In this document: positions 1 through 10,009 of the stretch, piece after piece | Numbering within the stretch: the stretch's first letter is position 1 | How the letters are laid out: every line of letters starts with the position of its first letter | DNA from: Deltaproteobacteria bacterium | Lineage (GTDB): Bacteria > Desulfobacterota > Syntrophia > Syntrophales > UBA5619 | DNA length: 14,553 nt | Assembly: GCA_021372695.1 (NCBI GenBank) | Contig: JAJFTY010000205.1 | Coordinates: 1-14,553, forward strand | Direction of reading: 5' to 3' | Notes under the pieces: model-generated | What the model was told of the DNA's origin: nothing | Database searches by the model: none | What the model saw: the letters and a program-made list of their open reading frames with translations, nothing else | Position numbers and translations under genes: made by a program

Positions 1-3000
1 CTGGCCGTGGAGGAGCGGCTCAAGAAAGGTGAGCTTAAGGCCATCGTGGCCACGAGTTCACTGGAACTCGGGATCGACATCGGAGAGCTCGACGAGGTCA
101 TTCTCATCCAGACGCCGCCGTCCATCTCGGCCGCGATCCAGCGGATCGGGCGCTCCGGCCACGGCGTCGGCGGCACGAGTCGCGGCCGCCTCTTCCCCAC
201 CCACGGCCACGATTTTCTCTATGCCGCCGTCCTGGCCCGGTGCGCGGCCGATCGGGAGATCGAGGCCGTGACCCCCGTCGAGGGCCCGCTCGACGTCCTG
301 GCCCAGGTGATCCTCGCCATGACGGGCGTCGAGACGTGGGACATCGACGCACTTTATGCCTTCCTCAGGCAGTCCGCCCCCTACCGCCGCGTCCCCCGCC
401 GGCAGTACGACCTGGTGCTCCGGATGCTCGCCGGCAGGTATGCCGACACCCGGCTCCGGGAGTTGAAGCCGCGGCTCTTCCTGGATGCGATCGACAACAC
501 CGTCCACGCTCGCGAGGGGGCGCTCCGCCTGGTCTACCTGGCCGGCGGGACCATCCCGAACCGGGGCTATTACGACCTGAGAATCGAAGAGAGCCGCGCC
601 AAGATCGGCGAGCTCGACGAGGAGTTCGTCTGGGAGCGGAGAGTCGGCGACACCTTCACCCTCGGGACCCAGGTCTGGCGGATCCGGAAGGTGACCCACA
701 ACGACGTCGAGGTGGTTCCCGTCGACGTGATCCCGGGGATCATCCCCTTTTGGCGAGCCGAGGAGCAGAACCGCGATTTTCACTTCTCTGAAAAAATCCT
801 CCTCTTCCTGGAAAAAATGAACAGCCACCTCGACGATCCGTCGCTCGCGGAGAAACTCCGCCGCGACTGCTTCCTGGACGGGCCGGCGGCGGACGAGCTG
901 ATCGGCCACCTGACCCGGCAGAGGGCAGCAACCGGGGCGGAGCTCCCCCATCGTGGGCACCTCCTGATCGAGCACTTCGACGACCCGCAAAACGCCTCGG
1001 ACCGCAAGCAGGTGGTCCTCCACACCTTCTGGGGCGGCCGGGTCAACCGGCCCTTTTGCCTCGCCATCCAGGCGGCCTGGCAAGAGAAGTACGGCTACCA
1101 CCTTGAAACCTTCGTCAACAACGACGCGATCCTCCTGATGCTACCCCACGACTTCTCGGCCCAGGAGCTCTTTTCGCTCGTCACTCCGGAGACGATCGAA
1201 CGGCAGCTCCGGCGGATTCTGGAGACGAGCGGATTTTTCGGGGCGAAGTTCCGAGAAAATGCGGGCCGGGCGCTTCTCCTCCCCTGCGGCGATTTCAAGC
1301 GGCGCCTGCCGCTCTGGCTGAACCGCCTCCGTTCGAAGAAGCTCCTCGACGCCGTCCTCCCCTACCCCGATTTTCCGATCCTGCTGGAGACCTGGCGGGA
1401 CTGCCTGAAGGACGAGTTCGACCTGGACCACTTGAAGGGGCTCTTGGACGAGGTGCGCGATGGCCGGATCCGGGTCACCGAAACGACGACGACCGCGGCT
1501 TCCCCATTCTGCGACGGCCTGATCTGGAAGCAGACCAACACCCACATGTACGCAGACGACACGCCCGCTGCGGGGAAGACCTCGGGCCTCGGCGAGGAGT
1601 TGATCCGGGAGGCCGCGCTTTCCGGCCAGCTCAGGCCGCGGATTCCCGCGGAGCTCGTGGCGCAGCTTGCGGCCCGGGTCCAGCGGACGGCCCCGGGCTA
1701 CGCCCCACGGTCTGGAGAGGAGCTCCTCGACTGGAGCCGGGAGCGGCTCTTCATTCCCTGGTGCGAGTGGGAGGCGCTCTGCGCGGCGATCGATCGCGAC
1801 GGGGAGGTTGCGGCCGCCGAGGCCGGGGCCGGGGTGCGGACGAAGATTGCGCGGGTCCGGCTCCCCGGCGCCGCCGCGGACGGGGTCTGCGCCCTGGAAA
1901 ACCTCGGCCGGCTCGCCGCGGTCTTCGGAGCCACTCCCAAAAGGCTTCGGCCAAGGGAGATCCTCTCCGGCAAGCCCTTGGGCGCCACGGCCGCCCTTTC
2001 GACCTCAGCCGTTGCTCCGGCGACGCCCTATGACAAGACCGTCAATCCGGCGGACCCCGGATCGGAGTCCGGGTCAGGTGCCGGAATCCAGGATCCAGGC
2101 AGCGATGCCCTTCTCACCTCGGAAGCGGAGGACGAGTACGACTTCGCCGACTTTCTCCGCCGCTGGCTTGCCTTCTACGGCCCGGTCCCGAAATCCTCCA
2201 TCGCGGAGGCCCTGGGCCCGGACGAAACCCGGCTCGACGAAACGCTCGCGGACCTGGCCGAATCGCAGGAGGTGATCCTCGATCTCCTGACGCAGGACGC
2301 ACCAGAGGTCGAGGTGTGCGACCGGGAAAACCTGGAGATCCTCCTCCGGATGGCCCGCAAGGCCAGGCGACCTGCGTTCAGGGCCCTCCCGGCCGAGGCG
2401 CTCCCCCTCTATCTCGCCGCCTGGCAGGGGATCGCCACGCCCGGCGATTCGCCCGACGACCTCAAGGGGCGGCTCGAACAGCTCTTCGGATTCCCGGCCC
2501 CGGCCGCAGCCTGGGAGGAGCACCTCCTGCCGGCGCGGCTTTCGCCCTACTATGGCGCCTGGCTGGACACCCTGATGGCCACGAGCGAGCTCATGTGGTT
2601 CGGCTGCGGGAAAGAGCGGATCAGCTTCGCCTTTGCCGAAGACCTGGAGCTCTTCCGGGCCGGGCAGGGCGGCGCAGGGACGGGCGCCCCGGAACCGGGC
2701 GGAGAGCCCGCGCCGGACGGGCTCGCCGGCCTGATGCCCGGGCGGTTCGGCCGTTACAGCCTCTTCGACATCGCCCGCCATGCGAAGCTGGACAGCGCCG
2801 CCGCCACGAAGCGGATCTGGGAGCTCGCCTGGCAGGGCAGGGTGACCAACGACGCCTTCGCGGCCCTGCGCCAGGGGATCATGACGGAGTTCGCCCCCTT
2901 CACCCCGCTGCCGGGGCGGGGCCGGCCGTCCCGCTCGGGGTACAACCGCTGGGCCGCGACGCGGCCCCTGGCCGGCAACTGGCATGCGATCGGGCCGGAA

Positions 3001-3627
3001 GGCGCAGAGCATGACCCGGTCGAAGAGACGGAGCTGGCCAGGGACCGGGTCCGCCAGCTGCTTAGCCGCTACGGGCTCCTCTTCCGGGAGCTTCTCGCCT
3101 ACGAGCTGCCGCCGCTCCAGTGGGGGGCGGTCTTCCGGGCTCTGCGGCTCATGGAGCTTTCGGGCGAGATCCTCTCGGGCCACTTCTTCGAGGGGATCCC
3201 CGGGGCCCAGTTCATCTCCCACGAGGCGTTCCGCTTCCTGAACGACCCCCTGCCGGAGGAGGCGATCTACGGGATGAACGCGACCGACCCCGCCTCCCTC
3301 TGCGGCGTCCGCTCCGAGGCGCTCCGGAACGGCCTCCCCACCCGCATTCCCTCGTCGCACCTCGTCTATTGCGGCAAGCGGCTCGCCCTGGTCTCGCGCC
3401 GGAACGGCCGGGTCCTGGATTTCTTTTTGCCGCCGGACAATCCGCGCCTCCTGGAATGCCTCCGCTTTGCGAAGGTCCTCCTCGGCCGGGAGTTCCTCCC
3501 CGAGAAGATCCTTTCCGTGGAGACGATCAACGGCAAACCGGCCCTGGAGAGCGAGTACGGACAAGCGCTCAAGGAATTCGGCTTCCAGCGATATCACAAG
3601 GGGTGGGAGCTGAGCCGGATGTATTGA
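1..3627 (+). CDS. lhr: Lhr-family ATP-dependent helicase, 5'-truncated by window edge
   Basis: The open frame runs from base 1 to a TGA at 3625-3627 and gives 1208 codons; the N-terminal RecA domain (Walker A, DExH) lies upstream of the window. Superfamily 2 motif V (ATSSLELGIDIG, fragment residues 17-28) and motif VI (QRIGRSGH, residues 47-54) are clear. The sequence after them fits the winged-helix and beta-barrel core of Lhr, followed by a long C-terminal region. Proteins of this family are 3'-5' DNA translocases/helicases linked to DNA repair; E. coli Lhr is about 1538 aa, so the visible part fits a full-length 'long' Lhr. Two low-complexity Gly/Pro/Ser linkers (about 2040-2105 and 2659-2736) separate C-terminal modules. 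The gene is very GC-rich, like the host backbone. It is followed after 42 bp by the convergent end of the ygjP fragment. Family assignment is firm; the exact cellular role is not visible here. Confidence 0.92.
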   Translation: MAVEERLKKGELKAIVATSSLELGIDIGELDEVILIQTPPSISAAIQRIGRSGHGVGGTSRGRLFPTHGHDFLYAAVLARCAADREIEAVTPVEGPLDVLAQVILAMTGVETWDIDALYAFLRQSAPYRRVPRRQYDLVLRMLAGRYADTRLRELKPRLFLDAIDNTVHAREGALRLVYLAGGTIPNRGYYDLRIEESRAKIGELDEEFVWERRVGDTFTLGTQVWRIRKVTHNDVEVVPVDVIPGIIPFWRAEEQNRDFHFSEKILLFLEKMNSHLDDPSLAEKLRRDCFLDGPAADELIGHLTRQRAATGAELPHRGHLLIEHFDDPQNASDRKQVVLHTFWGGRVNRPFCLAIQAAWQEKYGYHLETFVNNDAILLMLPHDFSAQELFSLVTPETIERQLRRILETSGFFGAKFRENAGRALLLPCGDFKRRLPLWLNRLRSKKLLDAVLPYPDFPILLETWRDCLKDEFDLDHLKGLLDEVRDGRIRVTETTTTAASPFCDGLIWKQTNTHMYADDTPAAGKTSGLGEELIREAALSGQLRPRIPAELVAQLAARVQRTAPGYAPRSGEELLDWSRERLFIPWCEWEALCAAIDRDGEVAAAEAGAGVRTKIARVRLPGAAADGVCALENLGRLAAVFGATPKRLRPREILSGKPLGATAALSTSAVAPATPYDKTVNPADPGSESGSGAGIQDPGSDALLTSEAEDEYDFADFLRRWLAFYGPVPKSSIAEALGPDETRLDETLADLAESQEVILDLLTQDAPEVEVCDRENLEILLRMARKARRPAFRALPAEALPLYLAAWQGIATPGDSPDDLKGRLEQLFGFPAPAAAWEEHLLPARLSPYYGAWLDTLMATSELMWFGCGKERISFAFAEDLELFRAGQGGAGTGAPEPGGEPAPDGLAGLMPGRFGRYSLFDIARHAKLDSAAATKRIWELAWQGRVTNDAFAALRQGIMTEFAPFTPLPGRGRPSRSGYNRWAATRPLAGNWHAIGPEGAEHDPVEETELARDRVRQLLSRYGLLFRELLAYELPPLQWGAVFRALRLMELSGEILSGHFFEGIPGAQFISHEAFRFLNDPLPEEAIYGMNATDPASLCGVRSEALRNGLPTRIPSSHLVYCGKRLALVSRRNGRVLDFFLPPDNPRLLECLRFAKVLLGREFLPEKILSVETINGKPALESEYGQALKEFGFQRYHKGWELSRMY
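2040..2105 (+). repeat. Low-complexity linker with imperfect inverted repeat inside lhr
   Basis: In-frame stretch coding for a Pro/Gly/Ser/Asp-rich linker (reads PADPGSESGSGAGIQDPGS). The DNA contains an imperfect inverted repeat, GACCCCGGA (2053-2061) against TCCGGGTC (2068-2075), with one extra C in the left arm. It may be an interdomain linker or an in-frame insertion of a dispersed repeat. Only the inverted repeat and the composition are seen directly. Confidence 0.35.
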
Positions 3628-3669: not shown

Positions 3670-3891
3670 TCAGTAAGCCCAGTCTTCGTGGCTGACCGGC
3701 AGTCGATTCAACTGACCACGATAGAACTGCCATTTCGGCAGGAATTGATCCATCAGCGCGACGAACCGGGCGCTGTGCGTCGGCTCCCGCAGATGGATCA
3801 TCTCATGAACCACGATGTATTCCAGGCATTCGCGCGGTTTCTTGGCGAGATCGGTATTGAGGCGGATGCTCCCTGCGATGGGATTGCAGCT
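3670..3891 (-). pseudogene. C-terminal fragment of YgjP/DUF45 zinc metallopeptidase
   Basis: Read leftward from 3891, this encodes 73 residues plus a TGA stop (3672-3670) with the hallmarks of the C-terminal half of YgjP/DUF45 (SprT-like, M48-type) metallopeptidases: SCNP, then a zinc-binding HEMIH, a following EPTH, and a terminal LPVSHEDWAY. The frame is open back to 3966, but upstream residues are antisense to the hsdS remnant and do not look like the family, so homology starts at the Ser codon at 3891-3889. The missing N-terminal 165 residues are present at 8107-8601 on the opposite strand and end exactly before this Ser (Trp-Gly | Ser-Cys). No start codon or RBS belongs to this piece, so it is a gene fragment. 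YgjP-type genes often accompany type I R-M operons; their role there is not established. Confidence 0.87.
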
Positions 3892-3979
3892 TGCCGCGTT
3901 GGAGGCAAAGCTGGGGAAGGCCCGGCAGATAAAACAGGGCATGATGCAGGAACTGCTGACCGGCAAGATTCGCTTAATT
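3890..3979 (+). pseudogene. hsdS: C-terminal remnant of type I R-M specificity subunit HsdS
   Basis: About 30 codons read LAALEAKLGKARQIKQ followed by GMMQELLTGKIRLI. The signature KQGMMQELLTGKIRL is the typical extreme C-terminus of HsdS, the end of its second conserved coiled-coil/helical region. Nothing of the two target-recognition domains or the central conserved region is present; upstream DNA is the reversed ygjP end. No HsdS stop is seen: the frame runs on into the regulator sequence, out of that gene's frame, to 4174. The remnant therefore sits between two junctions, one with ygjP at about 3889-3897 and one with the ATPase gene at about 3978-3990. It cannot give the R-M complex any DNA specificity. 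Confidence rests on one short but very characteristic motif. Confidence 0.78.
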
Positions 3980-5060
3980 GATCAGGCGGTGGCATTACCG
4001 GGGCGAGTATTACTACCGGAGCGGCAGCACCAATCAGCTTCTGAAAGGCGCGGCCCTGGACCGTTTCCTGTTGCGCAAGCATGGACGAACCTGGGATGGG
4101 GTGCCGCTGCCGGGCGTGCGGCCGGCCGACCTGGACAGCAAAGCGCTGAAAACATTCCGCAGGCTGGCCCTTAAAAGCCAACGCTTGCCCGAATCTGTGC
4201 TGGATGAGCCCAATCAGGCGCTCCTGGAGAAGCTGCACCTTGTCGAAGGCCATTACCTCACCCATGCCGCTGTCCTGATGTTTCACCCGGAGCCGGAGCA
4301 TTTTTTTACCGGCGCATACGTGAAGATCGGCTATTTCGAAAACAACGTGGATTTGCGGTACCAGGATGAGGTGCAGGGCGATCTGATCGCCCAGGTGAAT
4401 CAGACCATCGAGGTCTTGAAGGCCAAATACCTGAGAGCCTGGATCAGCTACGAAGGGCTTCAACGCATCGAAACCTGGCCGCTGCCCATGGCCGCCTTGC
4501 GCGAAGCGGTTCTCAATGCCGTGATCCACAAGGACTACACCTGTGGCACGCCCATCCAGATCAGCGTCTATCCCGACAAACTGATGCTCTGGAACCCCGG
4601 CGAGCTTCCGCCGGATTGGACGGTTGAAAAACTGCTGGGCAAGCATGCCTCCATCCCCTTCAACCCGGATGTCGCCAATGTATTCTTCCGGGCAGGGATG
4701 ATCGAGGCTTGGGGACGCGGCTTTGAACGCATCCTCGAAGCCTGCCTGGAGGCTGACACGCCCGCGCCGGAGGTGAGGTATGAACACACGGGCTTGTGGG
4801 TGGTCTTTCCTTTCACGGCTTTTGAGCCCGGCGCAGGGGAGGGAACCGGGGGAACTACCCAAGAAACTACCCAAGAAACTACCCAAGAAAAGATCCTCGC
4901 GCAGTTGAGAGCCCAGCCTTCCATCACCCGCCGGGACATGGCCGCCAGGATCGGCATCAGCAGCGACGGCATCAAGTATCACCTGGAGAAGATGAAGTCT
5001 GCCGGGAGGATTCGGCACGTCGGCCCGACCAAAGGCGGTCATTGGGAGATACTGAGATGA
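3978..5060 (+). pseudogene. AlbA/GHKL-ATPase-type regulator of type I R-M locus, N-terminally truncated
   Basis: The frame is open from a TTG at 3978, just after a TAA at 3975, to TGA 5058-5060. It matches the ATP-binding, putative DNA-binding proteins often found between hsdS and hsdR: an AlbA_2 (SLFN-like) N-terminal domain, a GHKL-type ATPase (HATPase_c_4) and a C-terminal winged helix. Here homology begins abruptly inside the protein at about WHYRGEYYYRSGS (about 3990), so most of the AlbA_2 domain is missing. The GHKL N-box-like REAVLNAVIHKDY (about 4500-4538), a glycine-rich IEAWGRGFERIL (about 4702-4737) and a C-terminal HTH (about 4920-5040) remain. A TTQE tripeat lies between ATPase and HTH. 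The end overlaps hsdR by ATGA, so the original operon coupling survives. No plausible RBS precedes 3978; the piece is probably not functional as the original protein, although a shorter ATPase-HTH product cannot be excluded. Confidence 0.85.
4854..4889 (+). repeat. Three perfect 12-bp tandem repeats (TTQE x3)
   Basis: Three identical copies of ACTACCCAAGAA lie in frame in the regulator gene and encode TTQE three times, in the linker between the ATPase and the C-terminal winged helix. Because the unit is 12 bp, copy-number change alters linker length without shifting the frame. Confidence 0.9.
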
Positions 5061-8000
5061 GCGATATCGGTAAACCCGAACGCGCCACGCAGGACCGGGT
5101 CATCGCCCTCTTCCGCGACGAGTTGGGCTACCGCTTCCTCGGCGACTGGACGGACCGGGAGGCCAACAGCAACATCGAGGAGGGGCTGCTGACCACCTGC
5201 CTGATAAAATGTGGTTACGGCCCGGGCCAGATCGGCAGCGCCCTCTTCAAGCTGCGCGCCGAGGCGGACGATCACCACCGCGGCCTCTACGGGAACAACC
5301 AGGCCGTCTACAACCTGCTGCGTTACGGGGTTCCGGTGAAGATCGAGGCGGGCAAGGTGACGGAGACCGTCCACCTCATCAATTGGCAGAAGCCGGAGAA
5401 GAACGACTTCGCCGTTGCCGAGGAGGTCACCCTGCGCGGCAACCATGAGCGGCGGCCCGACCTCGTGCTCTATGTCAACGGCATCGCGATCGCCGTGCTG
5501 GAGATCAAGAACAGCCGGGTCAGCATCGGCGACGGCATCCGCCAGAGCCTCTCCAACCAGCAGCCCGAGTTCAACGCGTGGTTCTTCAGCACCGTGCAAT
5601 TCATCTTTGCCGGAAACGACTCCGAGGGCCTGCAATACGGCGCCATCGGCACGCCGGAGAAGTATTTTCTGAAATGGAAGGAAGAGGAGGAGGACAACAG
5701 CCGCTTCAAGCTGGACAAGTACCTCCTCAAAATGTGCGAAAAGAACCGCCTTATCGAGCTGATGCACGACTTCGTCCTTTTCGACGGGGGCATCAAGAAG
5801 CTGCCGCGGGTGCACCAGTATTTCGGGATCAAAGCGGCCCAGCAGCATGTGCGCGACCACAAGAGCGGTATCATCTGGCACACCCAGGGGAGCGGCAAGA
5901 GCATCGTCATGGTGCTTCTGGCCAAGTGGATTCTGGAGAACAACCCCAACGCCCGCGTGGCCATCATCACCGACCGCGACGAGTTGGACAAACAAATCGA
6001 GCGGGTCTTCACCGAGGCGGGCGAGGCGATCAAGCGCACCGGGAGAGGCCGCGAGCTGCTCAGCCAGCTCGGCCAGGCCAAGCCGCGCCTGCTCTGTTCG
6101 CTGATCCACAAGTTCGGCCGGAAGGACGTGGACGACTTCGATCAGTTCATCAAGGACTTGGAGGCCAAACCCAGCCAGACCGTGGGTGAGATCTTCGTTT
6201 TCGTGGACGAATGTCACCGCACCCAGAGCGGCAAGCTCCACCGCGTGATGAAAGCGATGATGCCCAACGCGGTCTTCATCGGCTTTACCGGGACGCCGCT
6301 GCTCAAAGAGGACAAACAAACCAGCCTGGAGGTCTTCGGCGGCTACATCCACACCTATAAGTTCAGCGAAGGCGTCGAGGACGGTGTGGTGCTCGATCTG
6401 ATCTATGAGGCGCGGGACATCGACCAGCACCTGGGCTCCGGGGAGAAGATCGACGCCTGGTTCGAGGCCAAGACCAAGGGGCTCAACGACTGGCAAAAGG
6501 ACGAACTGAAGAATCGCTGGGGCACGATGCAGCACGTGCTCAGCTCCAAGTCCCGCATGGACCGGGTGGTGAGCGACATCATCTTCGACTTCAGCGTGAA
6601 GCCCCGCCTTGCCAATGAACGGGGCAACGCCATCCTGGTGGCCTCCAGCATCTACGAGGCCTGCAAATATTTTGTCCTGTTCCGGAAGACCCCCTTCAAG
6701 GGCCGCTGCGCGGTCGTGACCTCCTACAATCCGCAGGCCGGGGACATCACGCTGGAGGAGACCGGCGCGCACACGGAGACGGACAAGGAGTTCATCTACA
6801 ACACCTACACCGAACTCCTCAAAGAGGTCGACGCCAAGCCGGGCATGACCAAGACGGAGGCCTACGAGGAACGGGCCAAGTCCCTCTTTACCAAGGAACC
6901 CGCTAACATGCAGCTCCTCGTGGTGGTGGACAAGCTCCTCACCGGTTTCGACGCGCCGCCCTGCACCTACCTCTACATCGACAAGTCCATGCAGGACCAC
7001 GGCCTGTTCCAGGCGATCTGCCGGGTCAACCGGCTGGACGGCGACGACAAGGAGTTCGGCTACATCGTGGACTACAAGGACCTCTTCAAGAAGGTCGAGA
7101 ACGCCATCGCTGTCTACACCTCCGAACTGGACCACAGCGCCGGGGGCGTAGCTCCGGAGGTGATGCTCCAGGACCGGCTCAAGAAGGGCAAGGAACGGCT
7201 CGACAATGCACTGGAGGCCATTACCCTGCTCTGCGAGCCGGTGGAGCCGCCCAAGGGCGAACTGGAACACATCCACTACTTCTGCGGCAACACGGAGATC
7301 TCGGCAGACCTCAAGGAGCGAGAACCGCAACGGGCCGCCCTCTACAAGGCGACCGTGGCCCTCGTGCGCGCCTATGCCAACATCGCCGACGAACTGCAAC
7401 CGGCCGGTTATGGTGATGCAGACATCAGCCGCATCAAGCAGCAGCTCGACCACTACCTGGATGTCCGTGAGATCGTCCGCAAAGCGAGCGGCGAAAGCCT
7501 GGATCTGAAGGCCTACGAGGCCGACATGCGCCACCTCATCGACACCTACATCGAGGCCGACGAGCCGCGGAAGATTTCCCCCTTCGACAACATGAGCCTG
7601 CTGGATTTGATCGTGAAGACCGGCATCGCCGATGCCGTCAACTCGCAGCTCGGCGGGCTGAAGGGCAACAGAAACGCCATTGCCGAGACGATCGAGAACA
7701 ACGTCCGCAGCAAGATCATCAAGGAGCACCTGAACGACCCGGCCTACTACGAGAAGATGTCGGCCCTGCTGGACGAAATCATCAAGTTTCGCAAGGAACA
7801 GGCTGACAAGTATGAGGAATACCTGAAACGCATCGCCGAACTGGCCAAAAGGGTGGAGGCCGGTCAGGCGGAAGAGACCCCGGCAAAGCTGGACACGCCG
7901 GGAAAGCGCGCCCTTTACAACAACCTGGGCCAGGACGAGGGGCTGGCGCTCAAGATCAGTGAGCAGGTGATGAAAGTACGTCACGACGCGTGGCGGGGGG

Positions 8001-8107
8001 TGCATACCCGCGAACAGGTCATCAGGGCCGCCCTATATCAAGAATTGCAGGACGAAGCCGAGGTGGAGCGGATCTTTCGCATCATCAAGCAGCAGAAGGA
8101 ATACTGA
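5057..8107 (+). CDS. hsdR: Type I restriction endonuclease subunit R (HsdR)
   Basis: 1016 aa, full length for HsdR. ATG 5057 is chosen because it overlaps the preceding stop (ATGA) and follows a purine-rich GGGAGA; the frame is open a few codons further upstream. The N-terminal nuclease domain carries D135 ... E149-I-K151, with the same D-to-E spacing (14) as the PD-(D/E)xK site of EcoR124I HsdR. The motor has Walker A GSGKS (K281), a DECH box (D384), motif III FTGTP and motif VI ICRVNRL (about 7017-7037), followed by a helical C-terminal region that normally docks on HsdM. In a complete enzyme HsdR translocates DNA and cuts distant from an unmethylated site recognised by M2S. No internal stop or frameshift is visible. 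The gene overlaps the next ATG (8107) by one base. Its partners hsdM and hsdS survive only as fragments, so restriction is not expected unless trans-acting subunits exist. Confidence 0.96.
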   Translation: MSDIGKPERATQDRVIALFRDELGYRFLGDWTDREANSNIEEGLLTTCLIKCGYGPGQIGSALFKLRAEADDHHRGLYGNNQAVYNLLRYGVPVKIEAGKVTETVHLINWQKPEKNDFAVAEEVTLRGNHERRPDLVLYVNGIAIAVLEIKNSRVSIGDGIRQSLSNQQPEFNAWFFSTVQFIFAGNDSEGLQYGAIGTPEKYFLKWKEEEEDNSRFKLDKYLLKMCEKNRLIELMHDFVLFDGGIKKLPRVHQYFGIKAAQQHVRDHKSGIIWHTQGSGKSIVMVLLAKWILENNPNARVAIITDRDELDKQIERVFTEAGEAIKRTGRGRELLSQLGQAKPRLLCSLIHKFGRKDVDDFDQFIKDLEAKPSQTVGEIFVFVDECHRTQSGKLHRVMKAMMPNAVFIGFTGTPLLKEDKQTSLEVFGGYIHTYKFSEGVEDGVVLDLIYEARDIDQHLGSGEKIDAWFEAKTKGLNDWQKDELKNRWGTMQHVLSSKSRMDRVVSDIIFDFSVKPRLANERGNAILVASSIYEACKYFVLFRKTPFKGRCAVVTSYNPQAGDITLEETGAHTETDKEFIYNTYTELLKEVDAKPGMTKTEAYEERAKSLFTKEPANMQLLVVVDKLLTGFDAPPCTYLYIDKSMQDHGLFQAICRVNRLDGDDKEFGYIVDYKDLFKKVENAIAVYTSELDHSAGGVAPEVMLQDRLKKGKERLDNALEAITLLCEPVEPPKGELEHIHYFCGNTEISADLKEREPQRAALYKATVALVRAYANIADELQPAGYGDADISRIKQQLDHYLDVREIVRKASGESLDLKAYEADMRHLIDTYIEADEPRKISPFDNMSLLDLIVKTGIADAVNSQLGGLKGNRNAIAETIENNVRSKIIKEHLNDPAYYEKMSALLDEIIKFRKEQADKYEEYLKRIAELAKRVEAGQAEETPAKLDTPGKRALYNNLGQDEGLALKISEQVMKVRHDAWRGVHTREQVIRAALYQELQDEAEVERIFRIIKQQKEY

Positions 8108-8655
8108 TGGTCGCGAAGCTCAAGTTGGGCGACATCGCTGTGGATGTGACGTTAAAGGACATTAAAAATATCCATCTGAGCGTCTATCCCCCGACGGGCA
8201 GGGTGCGAATTTCGGCGCCGGCGCATATGAGCCTTGACACAATCCGCGTCTTCGCCATTTCCAAGCTGGGCTGGATCAAGGAGCAGCAAAAGAAACTAAA
8301 GGGACAGGAACGCGAAACGCCGCGCGATTATCTCGACCGCGAAAGCCATTACCTCTGGGGCAGGCGTTATCTGCTGGCGATCTCGGAGGGCGAGCAAGCT
8401 CCTTCCGTGGCGTTGAAGCACCGCCGGATGCTCTTGCAGGTGCGTCCCGGGGCCGACGAGGGGAAGAGGCGGGCTGCGGTGGAGGAATGGTATCGCGAGC
8501 AGCTCAAGAAGGTGCTGCGTCCCCTGATCGCCAAATGGGAGCCGCTAATGGGCGTGAAGGTCAGACGGTTTTTCGTGCAGCGGATGAAGACCAGATGGGG
8601 AACGCCCGCGTATTTGTCGCTGATGTACTTGATGAAGAGCAGGACGAGGATGTAG
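8107..8655 (+). pseudogene. N-terminal fragment of YgjP/DUF45 zinc metallopeptidase
   Basis: ATG 8107 overlaps the hsdR stop (TGATG), showing the ancestral hsdR-ygjP operon. Residues 1-165 (8107-8601) match the N-terminal part of YgjP/DUF45 proteins: a beta-rich start with LSVYPPTGRVRISAP, a helix with SKLGWIKEQQKKL, and the RMKTRWG that leads into the conserved W-G-S-C motif. Homology stops at Gly165; the last 17 codons to TAG 8653-8655 are antisense to the hsdM fragment. The metal-binding HExxH half is absent here but lies at 3670-3891 on the other strand, in exact register. Without the zinc site the product cannot be an active peptidase. The two pieces together would give 238 aa. Confidence 0.88.
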
Positions 8656-8744
8656 TCCTTGTATTGGCTGGCGTCCATGCCGCCGCGCAGTTCGTCGCAG
8701 CTTTGCCAGAGGGAGGAGTAGAGTTCGGATTTCTTGATCGCCAT
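8598..8744 (-). pseudogene. hsdM: N-terminal fragment of type I DNA methyltransferase HsdM
   Basis: From ATG 8744 leftward the first 49 residues read as a typical HsdM N-terminus: MAIKKSELYSSLWQSCDEL, then GGMDASQYKDYIL and FIKYISDKYAG. An RBS-like AAGGGGTG lies just upstream on the same strand, so the authentic start is preserved. After about V48-P49 (8603-8598) the frame runs antisense into the ygjP fragment and resembles nothing in HsdM; the N6-adenine methyltransferase domain, with its SAM-binding and NPPF-type motifs, is entirely absent from the window. This is the other breakpoint of the proposed inversion. Any transcript from the old hsdM promoter now runs antisense to ygjP' and hsdR. 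Confidence 0.87.
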
Positions 8745-9208: not shown

Positions 9209-10009
9209 TCACGTCGGCTTCCTCTTGTTACTCACGGCCCGGGGGATGGCCTCGTCCAGGGTCTCTTTCAGGGAATTCATGGCCCCGATGAGGCCGGCCC
9301 GATCCTCCGCCGAGAAGTCGGGAAATTCCAGATTGCCGATCTTTTCAGCAAAGACGCCGATGCTGTCGATCAGGACCGCTGCCTTGCTCCGCTTCTGCGC
9401 CGGTGGAACGGCATCGCCGGTCTCCCTGGCGGCGATCCTGGCCTGCTGCTCCCGGTATTTCCTGAATTGGGTCAGCATGCTCCGTTCCTGCTTCTTGCGC
9501 GCGATGTCGATCAGGGTCCTTTTGGGGACGGAGGGGTCCTTGCGACACTCGTCCCGGATCTCCCTGGGAAGCCGGTTCAGGGAGAGGGTCTCCGAGATGG
9601 TGGGTTGGGATTTGCCGATGATGGTCGCCAACTGCCCCTGCTCATAGGCATGTTCGTCCATGAGGCGCTGGAGAGCTTCAGCCTCTTCGACAGGATTGAG
9701 GTCCTGCCGGAGGAGATTCTCCACGAGCGCGATCTCGGCGCAGTTGCCGCCGTCGATGAAGATGGCGGGAATGGCCGGGAGGCCCGCCTTGCGCGCCGCG
9801 GCGCAGCGCCTCTCGCCGGCAACGGCATAGACCAGACCGGTGGCCGGGTCCTGGCGGCAGACGACGGGCTCTATGATCCCCATCTGCTTAACGGAGGCGG
9901 TCAGTTCGTCGAGAGCCGCGGGGTCCATGTACTTGCGGGGTTGGCCGGGGTCCGGCTGGACTTCGGCCAGGGGCACCATGTAAAGCTGGTTCTTCATGTA
10001 CATTGCCAT
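9209..10009 (-). CDS. Orphan ParB/RepB/Spo0J-family protein
   Basis: 266 aa. ATG 10009 is supported by AAGGAGG eight bases upstream; ATGs at codons 3 and 5 are alternatives. The N-terminal ParB/Srx-like nucleotide-binding domain shows GERRCAAARKAG (residues 65-76, box II) and ENLLRQDLNPVEEAEAL (97-113, box III). A helix-turn-helix follows at about 122-146 (QLATIIGKSQPTISETLSL). The C-terminal third is charged, with a KR-rich tail, and could mediate dimerisation. ParB proteins are CTP-dependent DNA clamps that load at palindromic parS sites and usually work with a ParA ATPase. No parA is adjacent on either side, so this is not a standard chromosomal parAB operon; it may be an accessory or mobile-element ParB or a ParB-like transcription regulator. 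A 16-bp palindrome lies just downstream. Family assignment is secure, role is not. Confidence 0.9.
   Translation of the reverse strand: MAMYMKNQLYMVPLAEVQPDPGQPRKYMDPAALDELTASVKQMGIIEPVVCRQDPATGLVYAVAGERRCAAARKAGLPAIPAIFIDGGNCAEIALVENLLRQDLNPVEEAEALQRLMDEHAYEQGQLATIIGKSQPTISETLSLNRLPREIRDECRKDPSVPKRTLIDIARKKQERSMLTQFRKYREQQARIAARETGDAVPPAQKRSKAAVLIDSIGVFAEKIGNLEFPDFSAEDRAGLIGAMNSLKETLDEAIPRAVSNKRKPT

Follow-up and report, generated by a model that had tools for sequence, protein, structure and literature searches.

An apparently inverted and partly deleted type I restriction-modification island with a ygjP gene split between strands

The window analysed here, a stretch of 14,553 nucleotides of contig JAJFTY010000205.1 (assembly GCA_021372695.1, Deltaproteobacteria bacterium), carries a type I restriction-modification (R-M) island in which one whole gene, hsdR, stands among pieces of hsdM, hsdS, a regulator gene and ygjP (Table 1). 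The pieces lie on both strands and meet at three junctions, J1, J2 and J3. An earlier interpretation made from the letters of the window (hereafter the sequence-only reading) had proposed one inversion that split ygjP and hsdM, plus a deletion of the remainder of hsdM and most of hsdS. We compared the pieces with related proteins and related loci.

Table 1. Features of the island, its junctions and its flanks
Feature	Position	Strand	Remarks
lhr-type helicase	1-3627	+	Left flank of the island
ygjP 3' piece, last 73 codons (SCN...WAY) and stop, with HExxH (HEMIH)	3670-3891	-	PF01863 145-206, E 5e-23; 89-95% identity to P0001-P0007
Junction J1, inverted ygjP codon 166 / hsdS tail	3888-3893		ygjP identity possible to 3892, hsdS frame from 3890
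hsdS remnant, last ~30 codons (LAALEAKLGKARQIKQGMMQELLTGKIRLI)	3890-3979	+	48-88% identity over the matched part to relatives' hsdS tails
Junction J3, hsdS end / mid-regulator	3980-3995		Regulator homology starts YRGEYYYRSGS (3996)
Regulator remnant, HATPase_c_4 and winged helix	3996-5060	+	PF13749 E 3e-20, PF13412 E 3e-9
hsdR, intact, 1016 codons	5057-8107	+	PF04313, PF18766, PF22679; PADLOC REase_I 1440 bits
ygjP 5' piece, codons 1-165 (...KTRWG)	8107-8601	+	PF01863 3-144, E 6e-32
Junction J2, ygjP codon 165 / inverted hsdM codon ~49	8598-8603		ygjP and hsdM frames meeting
hsdM remnant, codons 1-49 of about 799	8598-8744	-	PF12161 E 1e-12; PADLOC MTase_I E 6e-28; 84-96% identity, 51 relatives
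ParB/Noc-like gene	9209-10009	-	Right flank of the island

The two pieces of ygjP are present on the strands given by the sequence-only reading, the 5' piece ending in MKTRWG and the 73-residue piece starting with SCNPIAG, and the PF01863 domain is split between them. We joined them into a 238-residue query and aligned it with the 120 best listed of 8000 scored relatives. The joined protein was covered to 99-100% by relatives of 237-238 residues, with up to 91% identity and no gap, and residues 165 and 166 were adjacent in all 120. The seven nearest relatives (P0001-P0007) were identical for both pieces, at 82-91% for the N piece and 89-95% for the C piece, and a query made of the N piece and its out-of-frame tail, without the C half, again placed the same seven on top; across all 120 relatives the identities of the N and C pieces were only moderately correlated (r 0.44). 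Because the same seven relatives are nearest to both and no gap falls at 165/166, the halves are one gene and abut, which rules out an origin from different homologues and bears out the proposal that they meet exactly between Trp-Gly and Ser-Cys. At the DNA level, both ends could retain two A's at the break (8601-8602; 3892-3891), so that at most about 2 nt were doubled. A truncated relative of 195 residues (P0121) was considered as a second case of this break and reads instead as a frameshift just after GSCNP. No single continuous YgjP frame with HExxH is left in the window, the motif lying in the 3' piece only.

In what order did these genes once stand? A scan of genome contigs gave 530 related loci, and we searched the best 80 (L001-L080; HsdR identity 74-84%) for each fragment, at thresholds of E 1e-4, or 0.05 for short pieces. 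All 80 contain hsdR, 79 contain the N half of ygjP and 76 contain both halves, the gap between them being 0 nt in all but L060, where it is -1; the four loci without both halves stop at a contig edge 0-8 nt past the match. Thus, ygjP is one gene directly after hsdR in 76 of 76 loci having both halves, and the single base that the hsdR stop and ygjP start codons share in the window (TGATG) is likewise shared in 71 of 79. The start of hsdM was found in 51 loci and lies upstream of hsdR on the same strand in every one. Among the 29 others, 26 have less than 3.3 kb of sequence upstream of hsdR, the sequence of L043 and L047 ends within hsdM, and in L077 hsdM was matched only from codon ~33-41 on, though the DNA extends further. 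In ten of these 29 (L011, L019, L031, L037, L039, L043, L047, L067, L077 and L080), downstream portions of hsdM were matched upstream of hsdR and on its strand. The hsdS tail is upstream on the same strand in 71 of the 80 loci, the other nine having at most 2.3 kb of upstream sequence, and a regulator match precedes hsdR in 18, in some at 27-37% identity only. No minus-strand (inverted) piece was detected in the 80 loci at the thresholds used. By this comparison, the common order is hsdM-hsdS-regulator-hsdR-ygjP on one strand, wherever sequence reaches. Since order and strand are uniform, inverting approximately 3892-8601 of the window restores the common order, apart from the lost parts; the order that the sequence-only reading had taken as usual for the family is thus borne out by actual loci.

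What remains of hsdM and hsdS is small. The first is reduced, as had been read from the letters, to its first 49 codons and the second to its ~30 C-terminal codons, and no further significant hsdM or hsdS match was found in the window beyond these two remnants. The DNA absent from hsdM codon 50 to the hsdS tail amounts to ~3.3 kb by comparison with L004, 4.5 kb by L001 and 4.7 kb by L005. A tblastn match extended hsdS upstream of 3890 to 3848; the opposite strand there is the ygjP piece, 89-95% identical to relatives, and the extra 14 residues were taken as chance. The regulator remnant is 76% and 80% identical to the regulators of L005 and L072 and lacks the first ~92 residues of its relatives, so that the N-terminal domain and the native start are gone and the join falls at codon ~93. 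In nine of 11 regulators inspected, the frame continues upstream through a conserved domain of ~90 residues; the two exceptions are L033, seemingly frameshifted inside the domain, and L072, cut by the contig end. The loss at J3 is roughly 260-365 bp compared with L038 and L005, and up to 16 nt at the join could be assigned to neither side. The regulator start was lost by a deletion separate from the inversion, one absent from the earlier account.

Up to 5 nt can be assigned to either side at J1 (AGCTT, 3888-3892) and at J2 (GGGAA, 8598-8602), and the part certainly shared is below 5 nt, because the codon third positions of the lost DNA cannot be read. The hsdM/hsdS deletion and the inversion share J1 to within ~5 nt, and J3 lies ~90 bp from J1. 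No inverted repeat was found at J1 and J2: the best 12-base window matches at 9/12, against 8-11 in 200 random pairs, and of 91 inverted pairs the 25 longest include none that links J1 with J2; the one that comes closest, 15 nt at 87%, lies outside both, by ~120 bp at J1 and ~80 bp at J2.

The surviving frames look undamaged. HsdR retains its nuclease and ATPase motor domains; the motifs PD...ExK and DECH were found by pattern, and Walker A reads TQGSGKS, so that the pattern G..GSGK misses it. Of its 331 near-invariant positions, 2 are changed, which equals the median for 79 relatives (range 0-13). Corresponding counts are 0/32 and 0/16 for the ygjP halves, 0/30 for the hsdM piece and 1/48 for the regulator (median of 12 relatives 1). 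Decay being invisible in these frames, the event would be recent, or the DNA would still be selected, or the arrangement would be an artefact. Type I enzymes restrict only with R, M and S together, and methylate only with M and S. Since M and S are gone from the window, this copy, including its HsdR, should neither restrict nor methylate.

How could this arrangement have arisen? We consider it likely that a real rearrangement of the type I R-M island took place, in one event or several, and that the arrangement would be present in the living cell. The DNA may have broken between ygjP codons 165 and 166, around hsdM codon ~49 and close to the hsdS end; the segment running from the hsdS tail up to and including ygjP codon 165 would have been rejoined inverted, the ~3.3 kb that starts at hsdM codon 50 and reaches the hsdS tail would have been lost, and a further deletion would have taken the regulator start. 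Most probably, the ends were joined in one compound event that used little or no homology. Because the deletion abuts the inversion junction within a few bases, two separate events would need a coincidence, and we favour a single compound event as more parsimonious than an inversion and a separate deletion. The earlier proposal of one inversion plus deletion of the hsdM remainder and most of hsdS therefore stands for the inversion and the hsdM/hsdS loss, but it missed the second deletion, from the hsdS end to regulator codon ~93, and one compound event fits the abutting breaks better. Function would be lost as a result: the methyltransferase and the specificity subunit are gone, ygjP is cut before HExxH, the regulator has no N-terminal domain, and hsdR, though whole, has no partners in the window. 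Such decay is probably an ordinary, known kind of R-M loss and calls for no new machine.

A real rearrangement could also have been stepwise, which we regard as possible on a tentative footing: either a deletion would first have brought hsdM codon 49 against the hsdS tail, or the inversion would have come first, the other change following later. J3, a separate join, makes more than one change plausible, and the relative L052 has an apparent internal hsdM deletion without any inversion; yet the second event must then have broken the DNA within a few bases of the first junction.

Several points weigh against a real rearrangement of either kind. The arrangement is known from an assembled contig; three junctions inside 5 kb would be a high number for a single natural event; the sampled genomes included no close relative, whether carrying the island or lacking it, and the nearest YgjP is 91% identical; and the undamaged frames would fit an artefact on a live locus equally with a recent event. 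Multiple displacement amplification has as its main artefact, according to the available part of PMC1855051, inverted joins that drop the intervening DNA and show short complementarity. Template switching in whole-genome amplification, or misassembly, may thus have made the inverted joins and dropped the DNA between them, the cell having an intact locus; we hold this to be unlikely. The chimera profile in that part of PMC1855051 fits J1 and J2, which share all three of its features, and the open frames are undamaged. The J2 join was found in no other sequence among the 120 listed matches; since the nearest N piece there reaches only 90% identity, this carries little weight and does not count against the junction, and J1 was not searched in this way. 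However, the window has two reciprocal ends at one site, with no ygjP codon lost or gained, which would be unexpected from independent chimeras: switches made independently would coincide at a single bond only if the template had been broken at that point. J3 would require a third artefact, and the junctions have no inverted repeat to mislead an assembler.

If real breaks occurred, what made them? A self-destruction is conceivable, in which the island's own endonuclease, after a failure of modification, made several double-strand breaks in one burst and the ends were rejoined with a flip and losses. The clean reciprocal ygjP break, the contact between deletion and inversion, the 90-bp splinter of hsdS and the lack of damage in hsdR are all what a single recent event could have left behind; self-destruction as its cause is speculation, and we consider it highly improbable. 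Least probable of all, to the point of being negligible, is an inversion that is programmed or reversible, of the kind known from phase-variable type I loci. Type I specificity genes shuffle by rearrangement in other bacteria (as reported in the part of PMC3874165 available), but the comparisons above found no inverted repeats at the ends of the inverted piece, which led us to reject a site-specific or repeat-mediated switch. Pfam matches for ten window proteins include no recombinase or integrase, one end has lost DNA, and the breakpoints lie in hsdM, in ygjP and in the hsdS tail rather than between the hsdS recognition domains.

The island pieces have a GC content of 55-61% against 63-68% in the flanking genes, and the island was probably acquired. 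A ParB/Noc-like gene adjoins it; no ParA-type match was found among the window proteins scanned. A promoter-like site at 8849-8820 on the minus strand has a position that would suit the old hsdM promoter, now facing against hsdR; the idea is no more than speculation, as the scan gave 2 sites and chance alone predicts 1.5. As for the host, the best matches among the sampled genomes were SucC at 74-76% in 7 of 297 and Lhr at 60-62% in 3 of 395, all in the phylum of L030 (Desulfatitalea), which we take to be Desulfobacterota. Elsewhere, Lhr was matched at 59% in 1 of 46 genomes of the class of G121, with NhaA at 49% or less in the family of G121, and 23 genomes from G191's class gave no Lhr match. 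Four Lhr regions were searched for other genes of the window, and none of those sought turned up.

Beyond genome contigs, a plasmid search returned five records. In two plasmids from Sinorhizobium meliloti, 64% of the query (hsdR plus the ygjP start) is matched at 76%, and hsdR is followed by an intact SprT-type gene; the remaining three match 3-4% of the query. Viral contigs gave two distant HsdR loci, at 65% and 47%. By record titles, the loci with ygjP after hsdR and the one-base overlap come from many phyla. From this, the metallopeptidase-like YgjP would seem to be a constant accessory protein in this family of type I systems; our literature search on YgjP/DUF45 with restriction or hsdR found no paper on ygjP as a type I accessory, the YgjP match being, by its title, on E. 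coli promoters and the DUF45/hsdR match in the part of PMC5587805 available being only to DUF450 and an E. coli genotype. The relatives show irregularities of their own. In L052 (7217-8853), hsdM is seemingly without codons ~403-651 and the hsdR start occurs twice (10001 and 10841), perhaps marking another decaying copy, with no inversion; the first ~35 hsdR codons are doubled ~400 bp apart in two Nitrospira loci (L006:8582-8984 and L073:120-524). Apparent hsdM frameshifts in L001, L002 and L044 could, like the L052 deletion, be assembly errors.

Compared with the hsdM-hsdS-(regulator)-hsdR-ygjP operons of L001-L080, the window is alike in HsdR, in gene set and in the hsdR/ygjP overlap, and differs in having hsdM, hsdS, regulator and ygjP all broken and the middle inverted. 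It also resembles type I R-M loci that have decayed around an hsdR left whole, its partners being lost or truncated; the loss here would be by inversion and deletions, whereas the relatives show the apparent frameshifts and internal deletion just mentioned. Furuta and colleagues reportedly linked, in 2011, gene change in Helicobacter pylori to chromosomal inversion. The window is alike in that inversion and gene change share the same breakpoints. In the part of PMC3120642 available, however, the Helicobacter pylori inversion goes with duplication, whereas the window loses DNA and at most ~2 nt are doubled. Our literature search found no title about this gene set in a scrambled state.

Were the arrangement an artefact, it would show that amplification chimeras can mimic gene decay. 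The window also carries a warning for annotation, because hsdR looks intact and the locus could be counted as a defence system though M, S and YgjP are gone. As a real rearrangement, which we think likely, it would be a well-resolved case of the disablement of a type I R-M island, with four broken genes readable base by base.
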